Assembly (NCBI GenBank): GCA_016186945.1
Contig: JACPKR010000026.1
Span: forward strand, 1 to 13,303
Direction of reading: 5' to 3'
DNA length: 13,303 bases
From: Deltaproteobacteria bacterium
GTDB taxonomy: Bacteria > Bdellovibrionota_B > Oligoflexia > Oligoflexales > Bog-1112
Positions 2,080 to 13,303 of the stretch are shown here, piece after piece. Below the pieces are notes generated by a model, which was not told where the DNA came from, searched no databases, and saw nothing but the letters and a program-made list of their open reading frames with translations. Position 1 is the stretch's first letter. Each line of letters opens with the position of its first letter. Both the position numbers and the translations under genes were made by a program.

Positions 2080-2102
2080 AAATAGAAATTAAGGAGTCGA
2101 TG

Positions 2103-3530
2103 ATGAATCGGAATATCTTCAATCTTCTCGTTTCAGGCTTATTAACGTTATCTAGCCAAGCTTACGCCTATGAATTGCCGCCTTCCAAGTTGCCGTTTCC
2201 CATCCAGGCGGATACGAAGGTTCTTGAAGAAATTTCTAATGCTGTCAATGCGATTGCAGACCCAGCGAAAAAAGCCTTAGTCTTTATTTCGACGTCAAGG
2301 ACGATGCAAGGGCAAATGGATCCCTTCGAGTTTTTCTTCGGCGATCCGTCGCTCAGGCAAAGGACCCCCAAGCAGGAAGGCTTCGGTTCTGGCTATATGA
2401 TCGACCTGGAGAAAGGTTACATCCTTACCAACAACCATGTCATCGCTGATGCTGACGCTATCTCCCTCAAGTTGGCCGACGGAAAATCATACGAAGGCAA
2501 GGTCATCGGTACGGACAAGGATACCGACGTTGCCGTTGTACAGATTTCAGAGAAGTTTGACCGATCGAATTTGGCATCTCTTGTCTTGGATGATTCCGAC
2601 ACCCTCAAAGTCGGGGAAACAGTCATTGCTCTCGGTGCTCCGTTCCTCTTGGAAGCAAGTGTTTCGACCGGAATCGTCTCTGCTCTTGGCAGAGGAAATC
2701 TGGAAATTACGCAAATTGGAGATTTCATCCAGACCGACGCAGCTATCAACCCAGGCAACAGCGGTGGCCCACTCATCAACACCAAAGGGAAAGTGATCGG
2801 GCAAAACACCGCAATCTTTTCGAAGTCCGGTGCCTACGCAGGCATAGGTTTTGCGGTTCCTTCAAACCTTATCAGGCGGATTGCTACAGCTCTTATCAAC
2901 AATGGAAGCGTCTCCCGTGGTTTAATCGGTATCCGCCTGGATCTCCTACGTGACGAATGGCTGGCGAGCTTGAACCTTCCCAAGGACACAAAAGGAGTTA
3001 TCGTTGTTGAAATCATCCCTGGGGGACCAGCTCAAAAAGCTGGGTTGGAATCTGGAGATGTTATTGTTGGGATTGATGGGAAGGAATTCGTTCCTCATCA
3101 ACTTCCCAACATCATAGGACTCAAAAGTCCAGGGTCAAATATTGAGCTGACTTTCTACCGGGAAGGAAAGAAGCGCACAATCACAGTCGAAGTTGGAACA
3201 GAGCAAAGTATGTCCGTTGCAAGCGTTGGACATGCTCGGAAAGGGAATGTAGACGTCAACCCGTTCGGATTCCAGGCCGCCCCTCTCAATGATAAGGCCC
3301 GATCGCAGTATAACGTTCAAAGCAAATCAGGTCTCATCATCACACATATCGAGCCAAAATCTCCGTCTTGGAAATCAGGTCTTGAAGAAGGAGATGTTAT
3401 TCTCGGAGTGAATGGTAAACGTGTACAGAATCCTAAGGACTTTGAGCAAGTTGCGAAAGGTAAAGACCTTGTTCTCCTCCATATCGAACGCAAGGGGCGC
3501 TTTTACTTTGTAACCTTAAAAGGTAGTTAA
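2103..3530 (+). CDS. htrA: Periplasmic HtrA/DegP-type serine protease with two PDZ domains
   Basis: The 475-residue product (from 2103) has a signal peptide ending at AYA|YE (near residue 22). A trypsin-like domain carries the whole catalytic triad: His112 in TNNHVI, Asp142 in DTDVAVV and Ser220 in NPGNSGGPL. PDZ1 spans about residues 273-365 (GVIVVEIIPGGPAQKAGL) and PDZ2 about 388-475 (GLIITHIEPKSPSWKSGL). Length and order match DegP/DegQ/MucD proteases, which degrade or refold misfolded envelope proteins as oligomers. A Q-linker-like loop (FEFFFGDPSLRQRTP) corresponds to the LA loop. AAGGAG at 2091-2096 favours the ATG at 2103 (six-base spacing) over the ATG at 2100. The gene is tightly followed by the membrane-fusion protein gene (stop at 3530, next ATG at 3535), so protease and efflux pump are very likely co-expressed. 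Confidence 0.95.
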   Translation: MNRNIFNLLVSGLLTLSSQAYAYELPPSKLPFPIQADTKVLEEISNAVNAIADPAKKALVFISTSRTMQGQMDPFEFFFGDPSLRQRTPKQEGFGSGYMIDLEKGYILTNNHVIADADAISLKLADGKSYEGKVIGTDKDTDVAVVQISEKFDRSNLASLVLDDSDTLKVGETVIALGAPFLLEASVSTGIVSALGRGNLEITQIGDFIQTDAAINPGNSGGPLINTKGKVIGQNTAIFSKSGAYAGIGFAVPSNLIRRIATALINNGSVSRGLIGIRLDLLRDEWLASLNLPKDTKGVIVVEIIPGGPAQKAGLESGDVIVGIDGKEFVPHQLPNIIGLKSPGSNIELTFYREGKKRTITVEVGTEQSMSVASVGHARKGNVDVNPFGFQAAPLNDKARSQYNVQSKSGLIITHIEPKSPSWKSGLEEGDVILGVNGKRVQNPKDFEQVAKGKDLVLLHIERKGRFYFVTLKGS

Positions 3531-3534
3531 ATTG

Positions 3535-4416
3535 ATGAGTCGATTGCTTCCTATTGCCTTGCTCGCTCTTTCCTCGGCATGCACCATTCGGAAAGCGAAT
3601 GATATCGACAAAGTCGAGGAAGAGAACCTTGCTGAAGTGGCGATAACGAAACTGGAAAAAAGTGAGCTTTACGAAACGCTTGTTTTTGGAGGCACACTGT
3701 CCCCCATCACCAAGCAAGCACTCTATCCCTCGCTGCCTGGAATCGTAAAAGACCTCTTCGTCAAAGAGGGAGCAAAGGTAAAAAAGGGGGACAGACTTGT
3801 CAGCATCAGCCCTGATGGAATGGGTTTAAAATACCAGGACCACATGGTCGTGGCCCCATTTGCCGGCACAGTGATTGACAGTCCTGTAAAAATCGGCGAG
3901 CGAGTCGAAAAATCGACGGAAGTCATGACCGTCGCTGACCTTTCAAGCTTCAAGACAACGGTGTACGCCGCACTTGATGACTTGACTCATTTGAAGATCG
4001 GACAAAACGTCGACGTTATCGTTGCACCAGGCAGGGAGAATGAAGCCGTCATGCAGGGCACCGTCGATCATATCGCGGTTGCACCTGACAAGAAAAGCAA
4101 AGCCTTCCCCGTTACTGTCCTCATCAAGTGCAGTCGTCTGCCTTGCTCTCCCCTTCATCCCGGAACCGTTGTCACTGTTTCTTCCTTTAAAGATAAGCAT
4201 TGGGGTTTTAAACTCCCGGTGAAGTACCTCCGTAATAACAACAAGCAGATCATCATTCTGAAAGAAGACAACAACGTCTCCTGGATCGACGTCAGGAGGG
4301 GGAAGTTCTACGGAGATGATGTCGAAATTTTCGACCTCGACCCTACTACGAGAATCGTTAGTTCCTTTTCCCGTCAGTTAAAAGAGGGCGAAAAAGTTAA
4401 AATCGTTTCCGAATAG
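3535..4416 (+). CDS. RND efflux membrane-fusion protein (lipoprotein, no alpha-hairpin)
   Basis: The 293-residue product has a short signal sequence with LSSAC and Cys16 as the likely lipidated residue. The first lipoyl half (about residues 62-93, PGIVKDLFVKEGAKVKKGD) and the second (about 104-134, VVAPFAGTVIDSPVKIGERV) are separated by only about ten residues. A beta-barrel domain (about 135-215) and a membrane-proximal domain (about 225-293) follow. Periplasmic adaptors such as AcrA normally carry a long coiled-coil hairpin between the lipoyl halves to contact TolC; here it is absent, as in the Borrelia adaptor BesA. Cys199 and Cys204 could form a disulfide. An upstream in-frame TTG at 3532 abuts the ATG at 3535; the ATG is preferred. 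It lies between the protease and RND genes and should link the RND pump to the outer-membrane factor. Confidence 0.88.
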   Translation: MSRLLPIALLALSSACTIRKANDIDKVEEENLAEVAITKLEKSELYETLVFGGTLSPITKQALYPSLPGIVKDLFVKEGAKVKKGDRLVSISPDGMGLKYQDHMVVAPFAGTVIDSPVKIGERVEKSTEVMTVADLSSFKTTVYAALDDLTHLKIGQNVDVIVAPGRENEAVMQGTVDHIAVAPDKKSKAFPVTVLIKCSRLPCSPLHPGTVVTVSSFKDKHWGFKLPVKYLRNNNKQIIILKEDNNVSWIDVRRGKFYGDDVEIFDLDPTTRIVSSFSRQLKEGEKVKIVSE

Positions 4417-4427
4417 GGGAATGGCCC

Positions 4428-7400
4428 ATGGTTCGCAAGTTTTATGGAAACGTTTCGGCAGTCCTCTTTCTTATTGTGACTGTAAGCGTTATCGGTATCT
4501 GGCAGTTTTTCAAACTACCTATCGCCCTCTACCCTCAAACTTCCCGTACCATCCTTACTGTTTCGATCTCTCCCAAGGGGCTGAGTGTTGAAGATTTCCG
4601 ACAGAAATACGGTGATAGCGTAGAGGCGCGCTTGCTCGCTGTAAAAAATGTGGAAAATGTTTACGGACACTATGACTCCCACGGCGTTCGTTGGAAAGTC
4701 GAATTTGGGTGGGGCTTCGATGATGAGGAGGCAGTCGCCCTTGCCAAATCTGCAGTTTCTTCCGTGGAAAGTCAGTTCCCCAAGGAGTGGGGAGGTTTCG
4801 CCATTTACTTTGAGGGCAAGCACGATAACGTCATCGTCTACTCGGTGCATTCCGATAAAGTGGCGTCCGACGACGTCTTTATCTTTCTTCAGGAGCAGGT
4901 TAAAAACAGACTGGAGACGATCAAGGGCTTCGACTGGGTTTGGGTCAGTAGGCCGCAGGACAAGGAAATTCGCATAACCCTATCGGATGAAAAACTGTTG
5001 GAGTGGTCTCTCCTACCGGAGGATGTGGAAGGCGCCCTGAAAGAGAAAAAGGAAGACAGAATGCTGGGAAATCTGACGCTTCAGTCGGGCAAATCCCACG
5101 TTATTCACGTTCCCGCTAAAAATCGAAGTCTTGAGGATCTGGCCAACACCTTTGTGAAACGCAGAGGAGAACGTGATGTTTATGTGAAGGACCTCGCCAC
5201 TGTAAGTCTAGACGATCGATCTCCCGATCAAATCAGGAAAGGAAACGGCCGACGAGGAATCATCGTCGCTGCTGGCGTAAAAAAAGATGTTAACATTGTT
5301 GAGGTTTGTCAAGAGTTCGCACGCACCTTTGCCAAGGAACTTGAACATTCGAATATCCAATTTGATGAGTTGACCAATCCCGCACACTACATCAAAGAAG
5401 CGATCGACAACATAGGTCAGGCTGTGTTGCTTGGCGTTTTTATCGCGACTCTCATCCTTTTTTTGTTCCTTGGGTCTCTCAGCTATACCGCCATTATCGG
5501 CATCTCCATTCCTCTCTCTCTGATCGGAGGATTTACGGCTATGAGCCTGGCCGGAATCGAGATGAACCTCATCTCCCTAGGTGCCATGGCATTAGCAGCA
5601 GGTATGGTGGTCGATGGTGCCATCGTAGTGCTTGAAAATATCGTGAGGCATTTCGAAGACAAGCAACCCGAGACCATGTCTCAGAAAATCATGGTCGCCT
5701 ACAATGCTACGAACGAAGTTCGCATGGCTGTAATTGGCTCCCTCCTTACGACTATCGTCGTTTTTGCACCCCTTGCTTTCACAGCACCCCTAGCCAATGC
5801 CGTCCTTGGAGACCTGGCGAAAGTGATGGTGTTTGTCCTGGTGATCTCAGTCCTCGTTAGCCTCTTCATCGTGCCCCCGCTTTTTATTCTGTTAAAGAGG
5901 CAAAGAATGGCTCGCGAGGGCACCCAGCCTCTTGCACGCTCGAAGGAATTCCTGGGTCACGCACTCAAGCATTTCTATCTAAAAAGTTTAGGTCGGCTTC
6001 TGGAGAGTAAAAAACTTGCTTGGACGTTCTTCGCCTCAAGTTTTCTTCTTTTGATCGGTGCCTACTTCGTCTTCACGCTGGGCCTTCGCAGGGAAATTCT
6101 CGCAAGACCTGACTCCGATAAAGTCTGGCTAAGTATCATACCGGACGCTAAGGAAAAAAATGTCGAAAAAATGGACGTATTGATTTCCCAATACGAGGAG
6201 ATTGTTAAAAATGAATTTATGGATGAGCTTACACATTTTTATACGAACGTTGATCAAACCGGTGGATCCATTCTGTGCAACCTTAGAGACAAGGGGAATG
6301 TCAAATCCTTTGTGAAGAAACTGGAAGAGAGGTTTAAAAGTACGCCATTCGTTCAGTTTTTTGTGGGACAATGGCTGCCTTCAGCACTGGAAATTCCAAG
6401 TCCACCGGTTCTCTCTGTTCAAATAGGTGGATCGAGAGAGGAGAAACGAGCAGCCCTTGAACGCATCCAAAACGCCCTCTCCCCAATAAAAGGGGTCGGG
6501 AATATTGACGCCAGACCGTCTCCTCGGACTGAGACATCATTGGCTATTAAAATGGACTTTGATCTTTTGCGCTCAGTCAAGGCAGAGGTTTCAGAGTTGA
6601 CGGAAGAAACAATTTACAAGCAAATTAACGCTCATTTGGAAGACAAGGAGATTTCCGAGACCTTTTTAAAAAATGAGAAGATTCCTATCAGGGTCGGTTA
6701 TTTCAAGAAAGACTGGGAAAACCAAGGTGTGCTTGGAAACCTCCTGATGCGGGTGGAAGACAAGCTAATTCCGTTACGCAATTTTTTCACCCTGGACGTC
6801 GTGGAAAAGTGGGACGCGCTCTACAGTGAGCGAGGCAGGGAACTTGTTAAGCTTGACGTCTACCCCATGGAGTCCTTCGCTCAAAAGACGGATGAGGTGA
6901 AAGCCTCCGTTCAAGAGGCGATGGAAAAACTGAGCAAGACGCTTCCTTCCCTTAGTTTTCTGGACACAGAAAAAGAGATCAACGAGAACATCCTATCTCT
7001 TGTTTCAGCTCTTGCCCTTGCCCTTCTTCTTATTTGGCTGGTGGTGAATCTGCAATTTGCAAGTTTCAAGCAAGCGCTCGTCGTCATGTTGGCCATTCCT
7101 TTTGGGTTTATAGGCGCGGCTGTGTCCCTCTTCGCCTTTTCCAGCCCCTTGTCGCTGAACTCCATGTTGGGGATGATCCTGCTTTGCGGGACCGCTGTTA
7201 ACAACTCGATCCTCTTCGTGGATTTCTTCAATAGTGAAGAACATGTCGGACTGAGCATGCGAGAAAGGCTGCTGAAAACAGCGGAATTGCGTTTTCGGCC
7301 GATATTGCTTACAACCCTTACAGCTATCCTTGGGATGATGCCTCTGGCTCTGGGTTACGGCACAGGCGCGGAAGTCTTGCAGTCTCTGGGGATCACAGTG

Positions 7401-7544
7401 AGCGGAGGTTTGGCAATTTCCACAGTACTCACACTCTATGGCGTCCCCCTCTGCCTAAGCTATAGTATTTGGGAAAAAGAATCTGTGGAGAGGACCTTTT
7501 TTGAAAAAAAGTTCCCCTCCACGCCTCCCCCCAAAAAACTTTAG
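4428..7544 (+). CDS. RND-family inner-membrane efflux transporter (HAE-like)
   Basis: The 1038-residue product has the usual size and layout of AcrB-type pumps: TM1 at about 10-30, a large periplasmic domain, TM2-6 at about 328-490, a second periplasmic domain and TM7-12 at about 865-1015. The TM4 motif reads GMVVDGAIVVLENI with Asp396 matching AcrB Asp407 and Gly397 in place of Asp408. The TM10 motif reads GTAVNNSILFVDF, with Asn925 at the AcrB Lys940 position, as is common in non-enterobacterial HAE pumps. It exports substrates by proton antiport as part of a tripartite complex; the substrate cannot be read. GGGGA at 4416-4420 supports the ATG at 4428, 11 bases after the adaptor gene. The last 26 residues (SIWEKES... 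to PPPKKL) are encoded within an 84-bp repeat found again at 9837-9920. Confidence 0.95.
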   Translation: MVRKFYGNVSAVLFLIVTVSVIGIWQFFKLPIALYPQTSRTILTVSISPKGLSVEDFRQKYGDSVEARLLAVKNVENVYGHYDSHGVRWKVEFGWGFDDEEAVALAKSAVSSVESQFPKEWGGFAIYFEGKHDNVIVYSVHSDKVASDDVFIFLQEQVKNRLETIKGFDWVWVSRPQDKEIRITLSDEKLLEWSLLPEDVEGALKEKKEDRMLGNLTLQSGKSHVIHVPAKNRSLEDLANTFVKRRGERDVYVKDLATVSLDDRSPDQIRKGNGRRGIIVAAGVKKDVNIVEVCQEFARTFAKELEHSNIQFDELTNPAHYIKEAIDNIGQAVLLGVFIATLILFLFLGSLSYTAIIGISIPLSLIGGFTAMSLAGIEMNLISLGAMALAAGMVVDGAIVVLENIVRHFEDKQPETMSQKIMVAYNATNEVRMAVIGSLLTTIVVFAPLAFTAPLANAVLGDLAKVMVFVLVISVLVSLFIVPPLFILLKRQRMAREGTQPLARSKEFLGHALKHFYLKSLGRLLESKKLAWTFFASSFLLLIGAYFVFTLGLRREILARPDSDKVWLSIIPDAKEKNVEKMDVLISQYEEIVKNEFMDELTHFYTNVDQTGGSILCNLRDKGNVKSFVKKLEERFKSTPFVQFFVGQWLPSALEIPSPPVLSVQIGGSREEKRAALERIQNALSPIKGVGNIDARPSPRTETSLAIKMDFDLLRSVKAEVSELTEETIYKQINAHLEDKEISETFLKNEKIPIRVGYFKKDWENQGVLGNLLMRVEDKLIPLRNFFTLDVVEKWDALYSERGRELVKLDVYPMESFAQKTDEVKASVQEAMEKLSKTLPSLSFLDTEKEINENILSLVSALALALLLIWLVVNLQFASFKQALVVMLAIPFGFIGAAVSLFAFSSPLSLNSMLGMILLCGTAVNNSILFVDFFNSEEHVGLSMRERLLKTAELRFRPILLTTLTAILGMMPLALGYGTGAEVLQSLGITVSGGLAISTVLTLYGVPLCLSYSIWEKESVERTFFEKKFPSTPPPKKL

Positions 7545-7545
7545 A
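7462..7545 (+). repeat. 84-bp dispersed repeat, copy A (RND 3' end)
   Basis: This segment matches 9837-9920 at 81 of 84 positions with no gap. It covers the last 26 codons and stop of the RND gene. Inside it, 7485-7522 folds as a hairpin: GTGGAG pairs with CTCCAC and a TTTTTT arm with an AAAAAAA arm, with two mismatches. CCTCCCCCCAAAAAACTT follows. The three differences are G, C and G here against A, T and A in copy B. Because the first codons (SIWEKE) fit the conserved end of TM12 in RND pumps (compare YSLLER-like ends), this copy looks like the source and copy B the derivative. Confidence 0.9.
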
Positions 7546-7603
7546 TATTGAAGTTTTTGAAAAGGGGCTAGGGGAAAGAACTTTTTTCAAAAAGTTTTTC
7601 CCC
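7485..7603. terminator. Compound palindromic element between RND and TolC genes
   Basis: Three stems lie in a row. First, 7485-7522 (GTGGAG...CTCCAC with T/A tracts). Second, AAAAACTT at 7534-7541 pairs with AAGTTTTT at 7551-7558 across a nine-base loop. Third, GGGG at 7571-7574 pairs with CCCC at 7600-7603, with AGAACTTTTT against AAAAAGTTTTT between. The right half resembles the reverse complement of the left, so the whole is a dyad of about 119 bases centred near 7546. Similar T/A-tract palindromes are widespread as terminator-like or REP-like intergenic elements in Desulfovibrio and relatives. It could reduce read-through into the tolC-like gene or protect the upstream mRNA from decay. 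Confidence 0.6.
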
Positions 7604-7651
7604 AAATTGATTATCTTGAAAACTTCCAAAAAGAAAACTAAGGGGAGGATC

Positions 7652-8872
7652 ATGCGCATTTTTGTTCCTTTTTTATTTTGTTTCTCCGGTTCCCTCATAG
7701 CTGAGTCACTTGATTTACGCACAGCGGAGTCAGTGATCTTAGAAAAAAGCTTTGATCTCAAGTCAGATGAAGAAAACGTTCGCATTGCCGAGGAAAACGC
7801 TAGCGCTTATTACGGTAAAATCCTCCCGAAACTCGACGTCAGTCAGTCATTCAAAGACAAGGGCCTTCCGCAAACCAGTGTAAGTGTGAGTGAAGCAGTC
7901 CCCTATCCCCTCGATTGGTGGAAGCAGAAACAAATCCGCGACAATTCAGTAGCCATCGCCTCACGAACCAAGTCTTTGAAACGCCAGAGCCTGGTAAACG
8001 AGCTGCGCAAACTCTATTTCAACGTCAAACTTCGCGAAAAACAGAGAGAGATCGTCCTGCAGAATCTTGCTATCGTCGAAAACTTCCGTACAGAAAGCCG
8101 GGAGCGCTTCGCCAACGGCTTTATTTCGGAAAGCGATCGCCAAAGGTCGGAAATCGACTTGCTCACCCTACGTCAGCAATTGCTAAAAACTGATGCGGAC
8201 CTGCGAAGCGACAAGGAAAAACTAGGCATACTTCTGGAATGGAATACGTCGTTCATGCTCACTACGAGCATGCAACTAAGTGACAAATTCATTGCGCTTA
8301 AGGAAGAGTCGTTACGCCAGAATTTGAATATGCAGGAAAGCGACAATATAGCCGTCCGCAAACTGCAGAGTGAGAATGCTGACCTGCTCGTCGAGTCCTT
8401 CCCCTATCGTTACCTTCCTGAGATCAGCCTGCAAGCTAAGGTTCCCATCGACAGGGAAAAAAGCCCACCCGTCTATTCAGCGTCTCTCACTTGGAACCTT
8501 TTCAACGGAGGAGTGGACCGCACAGAGCATCGCAAGGCTCTATGGGCGAGGGAACAACGGGCCTACGAGTTCCATAAGCAGATGCAGGATTTCCAAATCG
8601 ATGGGAGACGCCTGATTGCACAGATCCTGGAACGAAAGAGCCGCTATTCACTTCAGAACGATGCTTTCAAAATGTACGAAAACATTGTTGCCTCCTCACA
8701 AAAGCGCTTTCATGCGGGAGCGATCAGTTCTCAAGATTTGAGCCTGGATATCCGTTCCTATCTTGAACATGCAAATTTGCTCTACCAAACCACATATGAC
8801 GCGCTCTCCAGCCTGGCAGATTTTGCTCTCCTTGTGGGGAAAGAGGAACTTTTCTACGATTTCCTATATTGA
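7652..8872 (+). CDS. TolC-family outer-membrane efflux protein
   Basis: The 406-residue product (from 7652) starts with a signal peptide ending at LIA|ES (about residue 17). It shows the internally repeated pattern of TolC/OEP proteins: long amphipathic helices at about 100-196 with RFANGFISESD, and at about 300-396 with RFHAGAISSQDL, each followed by a helix ending in LLG/LLVG. A beta-strand region carries SLTWNLFNGG near 278-287, the typical second OEP strand signature. It should form the trimeric outer-membrane channel for the RND and adaptor genes upstream. It is shorter than E. coli TolC. An in-frame TTG at 7607 lies upstream, but AGGGGAGG at 7641-7648 and the signal peptide favour the ATG at 7652. 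The palindromic element just upstream may uncouple its expression from that of the pump. Confidence 0.92.
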   Translation: MRIFVPFLFCFSGSLIAESLDLRTAESVILEKSFDLKSDEENVRIAEENASAYYGKILPKLDVSQSFKDKGLPQTSVSVSEAVPYPLDWWKQKQIRDNSVAIASRTKSLKRQSLVNELRKLYFNVKLREKQREIVLQNLAIVENFRTESRERFANGFISESDRQRSEIDLLTLRQQLLKTDADLRSDKEKLGILLEWNTSFMLTTSMQLSDKFIALKEESLRQNLNMQESDNIAVRKLQSENADLLVESFPYRYLPEISLQAKVPIDREKSPPVYSASLTWNLFNGGVDRTEHRKALWAREQRAYEFHKQMQDFQIDGRRLIAQILERKSRYSLQNDAFKMYENIVASSQKRFHAGAISSQDLSLDIRSYLEHANLLYQTTYDALSSLADFALLVGKEELFYDFLY

Positions 8873-12848: not shown

Positions 12849-13040
12849 TCAATGTCGTCCGAAGATGTCCAATTGAACATCGTCTATGTCGACCTCCATT
12901 TTTTCAGCGAGAGTCGTGATTTTGTCCTTTGCAATCGTAGCGAGCACCCCCAAGAGAATCATCGTTGCCAAAGTCGCAAACGTCGTGACCAAGACATACT
13001 CAAGAGCAATTCCCCCGCGGCATCTGCGAGCACGTTCCAT
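12849..13040 (-). CDS. Flp/TadE-type prepilin-like small protein
   Basis: The 63-residue product begins MERARRCRG|GIALEYVLVTT: a short basic leader, Gly at the cleavage point, and Glu at +5 followed by Tyr, as in the Flp-type prepilin motif (G|xxxxEY) cut by a TadV/PilD-like peptidase. A hydrophobic helix (about residues 10-37) and a short acidic tail (EVDIDDVQLD) follow, the usual shape of a Flp pilin. GGGAGG lies five to six bases before the ATG (13040-13038), strongly supporting translation. It is the first gene of a two-gene minus-strand unit and lies divergent from the IS110/Piv-type recombinase. No tad assembly genes are in the window, so it could be a major Flp pilin, a pseudopilin, or a prepilin served by genes elsewhere. 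Confidence 0.75.
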   Translation of the reverse strand: MERARRCRGGIALEYVLVTTFATLATMILLGVLATIAKDKITTLAEKMEVDIDDVQLDIFGRH

Positions 13041-13141
13041 GGCGACCTCCCTTCCCCAACACTAGGAAAGAAAAGGTCGGTCAGCCAATGACATTAGGGT
13101 GCATCTTGCCGCGGACATTTAAACGAATCCGTAAGCCACTT

Positions 13142-13173
13142 GGGGCAAATAGGGAGAGGGGGATTTGGGGGGG
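13142..13173 (+). other. G-quadruplex motif
   Basis: Four G runs (13142-13145, 13152-13154, 13158-13162 and 13167-13173) are separated by loops of six, three and four bases, meeting the G3+N1-7 rule for an intramolecular quadruplex on the plus strand. It lies in the 213-base gap between the prepilin gene and the recombinase gene. Whether it folds in the cell is unknown. Confidence 0.6.
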
Positions 13174-13220
13174 CGAGTTACTATGTTGAATAGTAGTAGC
13201 GACCTGGCCCACAAAAAAGG

Positions 13221-13251
13221 AAACTCCTAGATCAACACATCATAGGAGTTT
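13221..13251 (+). promoter_or_regulatory. Hairpin sequestering the recombinase ribosome-binding site
   Basis: AAACTCCTA (13221-13229) is perfectly complementary to TAGGAGTTT (13243-13251), giving a nine-bp stem with a 13-base loop. The only Shine-Dalgarno sequence of the downstream gene, AGGAG at 13244-13248 (five bases before the ATG at 13254), lies wholly in the 3' arm. The folded RNA should hide it from ribosomes. Similar sequestration limits transposase translation from read-through transcripts in other insertion sequences such as IS10 and IS200. Confidence 0.7.
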
Positions 13252-13253
13252 GT

Positions 13254-13303
13254 ATGAGAGTCTCTTATCAAGGAAAAACTGTCAACGTGGGAATTGATGT
13301 TCA
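13254..13303 (+). CDS. N-terminus of an IS110/Piv-family transposase (partial)
   Basis: The gene is cut by the window end after 16 codons: MRVSYQGKTVNVGIDV. The VGIDV motif with its Asp near residue 15 is the first conserved block of IS110-family DEDD transposases, whose start commonly reads '...(Y/F)xGKxxxVGIDVHKxx', with the Asp being the first catalytic acidic residue of a RuvC-like fold. Piv DNA invertases share the same block. AGGAG lies five bases upstream but is buried in a hairpin. With only 16 residues, IS110, IS1111 and Piv cannot be told apart. Confidence 0.65.
   Translation, partial: MRVSYQGKTVNVGIDV

Follow-up and report, generated by a model that had tools for sequence, protein, structure and literature searches.

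A new IS110/IS1111-family element of probable IS1111-like layout set in the hairpin loop of an abundant host repeat

In the described IS110/IS1111 mechanism, a recombinase loaded with a guide RNA pairs target and donor loops and exchanges strands at a shared dinucleotide (PMC11208160, PMC11187229). An RNA whose top-strand guide comes first has the IS1111 order (PMC11187229). Here we analyse an element that was found at the end of the window, meaning the whole 13,303-nucleotide stretch of DNA under study. This stretch corresponds to contig C19 of a 76-contig genome of 2.66 Mb (G000), and its end falls within the insertion sequence (IS). Relatives were chosen by the same N-terminal pattern, and comprise L187, L168, L173 and L180, which are of the same class, together with others taken from a genome collection.

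The closest described systems each share part of what is seen here. As in the IS1111 group (IS4321, ISEc11, ISPa11 and ISKpn4, with their seekRNA), the left end is short and the guide RNA, in the relatives, lies 3' of the transposase (PMC11187229); the relatives' top-strand guide precedes the bottom-strand guide; subterminal inverted repeats stand about 7 bp from the left end and about 3 bp from the right end; and a palindromic repeat serves as insertion site, as REP does for ISPa11 (PMC11187229). The difference is phylogenetic, in that the transposases of the relatives group, fully supported, outside the clade of IS4321 and ISEc11. IS621 and the bridge-RNA elements of the IS110 group belong, like the present set, to the family of recombinases with DEDD and Ser domains (phmmer 2.5e-9 to IS621). 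They too have target and donor guides in two parts, core dinucleotide included, and a target in a repeated palindrome (REP) (PMC11208160). However, the RNA of IS621 lies upstream, in a long left end, and the IS110 type has the bottom-strand guide first. Some members of the IS110 family have a non-coding region downstream (PMC11187229); they show the same layout, unusual outside IS1111, and were compared by description only. The element is a new member of the RNA-guided IS110/IS1111 family, probably of IS1111-like layout, and sits in a host repeat present in very many copies.

Ends and junctions of the element

The genome was searched with positions 13060-13303 of the window. Eight contig ends matched on through the transposase start, while many short matches inside contigs, to 13126-13178, were copies of an inverted repeat. 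Matches elsewhere in the genome started at query position 62-67, and 13060-13123 had no counterpart in any other copy in this search. The identity of the shared left end is beyond chance, because eight independent contig ends break at one junction. The preliminary description had placed the left end of an IS110-family element at the edge of the window, and this holds: the end is shared by the eight contig ends and is followed by the frame at 13254 with D15. About 200 bases of structured non-coding DNA were also said to precede the gene. Of this, 13178-13253 (76 bp) lies in the IS and recurs at the eight contig ends, whereas 13090-13123 is flank, present in no other copy, and 13124-13177 belongs to the repeat. 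The features are collected in Table 1.

Table 1. Features at the end of the window.
Feature	Position	Strand	Evidence or remark
ORF of 63 residues, in which a hydrophobic stretch resembles small Flp-type pilins (RGGIALEYVLVTTFATLA)	12849-13040	minus	repeat and IS just upstream
Unique host flank, outside IS and target repeat	13090-13123		no match to other copies
Left half of the target, a MITE-like inverted repeat cut by the IS in the GGGGGGGCGA/TCGCTCCCCC hairpin loop	13124-13177	+	
Core dinucleotide AG	13176-13177	+	common to target, left junction and right junction
Non-coding left end of the IS, 76 bp	13178-13253	+	same sequence at 8 contig ends
Left subterminal inverted repeat TATGTTGAATA	13182-13192	+	end-to-end local alignment
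Predicted hairpin AAACTCCTA/TAGGAGTTT around Shine-Dalgarno AGGAG (13244-13248)	13221-13251	+	fold prediction; also seen in most relatives outside the cyanobacteria
Start of IS110-family transposase gene (MRVSYQGKTVNVGIDVH...), truncated by contig end	13254-13303	+	reading frame; similar start in L187, L168, L173, L180
First catalytic Asp codon of DEDD (D15)	13296-13298	+	D15 invariant in alignment A1

The ATG at 13254 starts MRVSYQGKTVNVGIDVH, to which contig C49 adds two residues (...HKQ). The assembled part of the transposase is its first 19 residues, D15 included, and all contigs end within the first 57 coding bases, a pattern expected of a multicopy element that exceeds the read length. 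A Pfam search with the 22-residue N-terminus, a query too short for the purpose, returned no match. PF01548 and PF02371 had no match in the genome, where no IS110-type transposase is assembled. No full copy of the IS was found in this genome, in the set of 96 genomes (this one plus relatives; DNA search), in viral contigs (exact pattern) or in plasmids.

Right ends were found by reading nearly all contig ends of the genome, which yielded seven copies spread over six further contig ends, with two copies on contig C76. Insertion is site-specific, at a single position with the dinucleotide core AG and without added bases in all 8 left and 6 right junctions, and the position and orientation of the IS in the repeat are fixed. 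On the left, 8/8 junctions read GCGAG followed by TTACTATG (longer form GGCGAG followed by TTACTATG), with ...GGGGCGAG upstream of 13178 at every one of these contig ends. On the right, 6/6 junctions to the repeat read CATAAC followed by AGGGAACC; in these six, ...CACATAAC, seen also as ...GGATATTCACATAAC, is joined to AGGGAACCGTCGC, and the right half of the repeat follows. Left and right contigs could be paired through the 8-bp duplication of the repeat (C46 with C30 by GGGTGGAA, C59 with C16 by GAAGGGCC, and C22 with C76 at 7/8). Therefore one IS occupies each gap, and both of its ends and the AG core are fixed.

Contig C76 (1-130, L095) carries a tandem duplication of the right end, in which CATAACAG is joined to an internal donor-guide copy, AATAACAG-GTTGTT, identical in sequence to the terminus. 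This duplication may stem from homologous recombination or an assembly artefact, or the guide gene may have served as a false end. GAATAA on C30 and C48 was considered as the transposase stop and dropped, since the corresponding ACGAATRACNG motif of the relatives lies well downstream of their stop.

Local alignment of the two ends gave subterminal inverted repeats, TATGTTGAATA on the left and TATTCACATA on the right (C30/C48), with 10 pairs and one gap; IS1111 elements are characterised by such repeats of at least 7 bp, a length that TATTCACATA and TATGTTGAATA reach. Folding shows two short hairpins in the left end, of which one lies over the transposase ribosome-binding site, and the fold is only marginally better than that of shuffled sequences (z -1.98 for 13110-13253, and z -1.87 for the left end alone). 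The second hairpin (13221-13251) probably blocks translation of the transposase and so would keep its level low. A hairpin that buries the Shine-Dalgarno sequence before the start codon is also seen in L192, L196, L198, L199, L200, L203, L205, L228 and L245. Most non-cyanobacterial relatives have one, and in cyanobacterial relatives it is weak or missing. Its probable role is that of a guard against read-through translation.

The target repeat

The uninterrupted repeat is an inverted repeat of 144-146 bp, GTAATGCGTAAGCCACTTGGGGCAA...TTGCCCCAAGTGGCTTACGCATTAC. Its core, GGCGAG[GT]GAA[GC]CGTCGC, occurs 169 times in the genome, against 0 for a reversed control pattern. The repeat has transposed and is MITE-like, because its flanks show 8-bp target duplications: the flanking 8 bp were identical at 7/8 positions or better in 6/19 uninterrupted two-ended copies, compared with 0/342 mismatched pairings. 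By origin it may be an IS66-type MITE, given its GTAA ends and 8-bp duplication. The genome holds no IS66 transposase, and we found no paper in support of this origin.

One full copy of the repeat folds at -96 kcal/mol (z -10.5), and the IS insertion point is the apical loop of its hairpin, GGGGGGGCGA-[loop]-TCGCTCCCCC. At the right junctions the loop belongs to the GGGAACC subtype in 6/6 cases, compared with 50/100 for the uninterrupted copies that head the list (p 0.016), modest evidence that the right target arm matters.

Guide RNAs in the relatives and at the right end

The relatives carry DEDD, a C-terminal SSG motif and both PF01548 and PF02371, passing the Pfam and NCBIfam cut-offs. Against NF033542, 'IS110 family RNA-guided transposase', for which the cut-off is 140, three of the relatives reach 213-214 bits. 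Their ends are like those of the present element, with TNCTATGNTGA on the left and CATRRC-AG or CATGAC-TG on the right. One of them, L180, is internally deleted. In the tree, their transposases form one supported clade outside IS4321 and ISEc11 (100/100), and so do not belong to the IS1111 clade; the 19 residues of this element are too short to place.

Eleven related elements have a covarying non-coding RNA between the transposase stop codon and the right end (alignment A2). It consists of two stems with compensatory changes in 14/23 pairs, and Rfam has no family for it. In the first loop, the 5' stretch is complementary to the right flank of the same element, read on the top strand, and the 3' stretch matches that element's left flank, also on the top strand; examples are CAACCAGGCT for AGCCTGGTTG in L203, GTTCAACCCA for TGGGTTGAAC in L219, and CGATGGATAG for the left flank CAATGGATAG in L199. 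The top-strand guide thus lies 5' of the bottom-strand guide. Target guides scored 83 against their own right flanks, compared with 52 expected from swapped flanks, and 70 against their own left flanks, compared with 48 (p 2e-4 in each case, uncorrected for relatedness). The donor guide, ...ATRRCNG, equals the last six bases of the element's own right terminus in 12/12 elements, including this one (permutation p 1e-5, likewise without correction for relatedness).

The core is TG in the cyanobacterial members L193, L197, L201, L204, L206 and L219 and AG in the proteobacterial members, and the donor guide of the RNA changes along with it (alignment A2). In L202 (3003-4470), two related IS110-type elements stand head to tail, with a guide-RNA model match after each. 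The 3' region of L212 (3040-3360) contains the donor motif ACGAATAG(T/C)AG twice, as if the guide-RNA region had been duplicated.

A covariance model built from the 3' RNA of the relatives was applied to the present element. It matched the first 51 bases of C30 at 26.1 bits, with E 4.5e-5 in 80 kb, and the end of C48 at E 1.2e-4. Both matches span model position 90 to the end and stop exactly at the contig edge. The fragment corresponds to the last, donor-guide third of the RNA (...CCCGAATAACAGGTTGTT) and matches the element's own right terminus. With filters off, the C30 and C48 ends scored only 8.6 bits, a setting in which, according to the tool's note, matches truncated by the sequence end can score lower. 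The whole-genome run gave only a chance-level match elsewhere (E 2.0). The IS621 layout, with the guide RNA in a long left end, is not seen, as the left end measures 76 bp and the window has no match to the model. The IS1111 layout, a long 3' non-coding region with a guide RNA, is that of the relatives, and in this element it is the 51-base right-end fragment that matches the model. From this edge-truncated match and its position beside the right terminus, we infer that the element has a 3' guide RNA. Its target specificity is shown by where it inserts; its guides for the repeat are putative.

Proposed mechanism and alternatives

Very probably, then, this is a multicopy RNA-guided IS of the IS110 family, present in some 7-8 copies, that takes its guide RNA from its 3' end and targets a MITE-like hairpin of about 170 copies. 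The element would encode an intact DEDD/Ser recombinase, which would take up a guide RNA, of the bridge RNA or seekRNA kind, encoded in the 3' non-coding DNA at the right end. This complex would connect the AG core of a circular IS copy, whose junction would read CATAAC-AG-TTACTATG, with the AG core located in the repeat's hairpin loop. The target loop would pair with the hairpin site and the donor loop with the joined ends of the circular copy, and strands would be exchanged at the shared dinucleotide. The RNA of this element is predicted to hold a stretch complementary to AGGGAACCGT, with target guides close to ACGGTTCCCT and to GGGGCGAG. On this explanation, the repeat offers many sites where insertion harms little. 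In several relatives the joined ends form a good promoter, TTGACA-17/18-TATGAT; in this element it is weak.

The preliminary description had instead proposed an IS110-type element with a bridge-RNA locus at 13090-13253, in the left end. The guide RNA of IS110-group elements does usually lie upstream of the transposase (PMC11208160, PMC11187229), and the left end forms two hairpins, but we consider this placement very unlikely. The left end, at 76 bp, is too short for a bridge RNA, and the remainder of the interval is target repeat or unique flank. The fold is marginal (z -1.87), and neither Rfam nor the covariance model has a match in the window; on these grounds the candidate was rejected. 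Furthermore, the relatives' RNA lies 3' of the gene, and the matching fragment is at this element's right end. The proposed RNA-guided recombinase with target and donor loops therefore survives for the family, but with its RNA at the opposite end of the element.

A further reading, that the copies are non-autonomous derivatives consisting of ends only, without a functional transposase, and mobilised by another IS110 element, would account for a genome in which no transposase is assembled, and internally deleted relatives such as L180 are known. It is nevertheless improbable: the left ends continue into an open transposase frame, the breaks there fit the collapse of a longer multicopy unit, and short forms would more probably have been assembled through. 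Almost no weight can be given to the idea that the repeat half belongs to the IS, with the element ending at 13124 rather than 13178. Positions 13124-13177 are indeed common to 5/8 left contigs, and their last 28-33 bp to three more, but the idea is refuted by about 169 uninterrupted, IS-free copies that hold both halves, and both halves are bordered by terminal repeats and 8-bp duplications that belong to the repeat itself.

The preferred reading of a 3'-guided IS in a MITE-like hairpin has a wider form, for and against which we see about equal weight: that a clade outside IS1111 by transposase phylogeny has an IS1111-type guide system, with a 3' RNA, reversed guide order and subterminal repeats, this member being specialised on the loop of the roughly 170-copy hairpin. 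If true, neither the location of the guide RNA nor the guide order would simply follow the IS110/IS1111 split. The locus is a clear example of how an RNA-guided IS can parasitise a different repeat family, and the 8-bp duplications of the repeat allow contigs to be paired across the gap. The related elements, in which target guides and donor guides can be read and the cores covary (AG versus TG), should be useful for predicting programmable recombinases with a right-end RNA, and they bring a correction, namely that the short left end in this IS110 set holds no guide RNA.

The rest of the window is ordinary at 2100-8872, where a trypsin/PDZ (DegP-like) protease gene is followed by HlyD, AcrB-type and OEP efflux genes. 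The 63-residue ORF at 12849-13040 had no match in a Pfam search. CCGCGG-rich repeats and other mobile-element-like sequences lie at many other contig ends of the genome, which is unusually repeat-rich.
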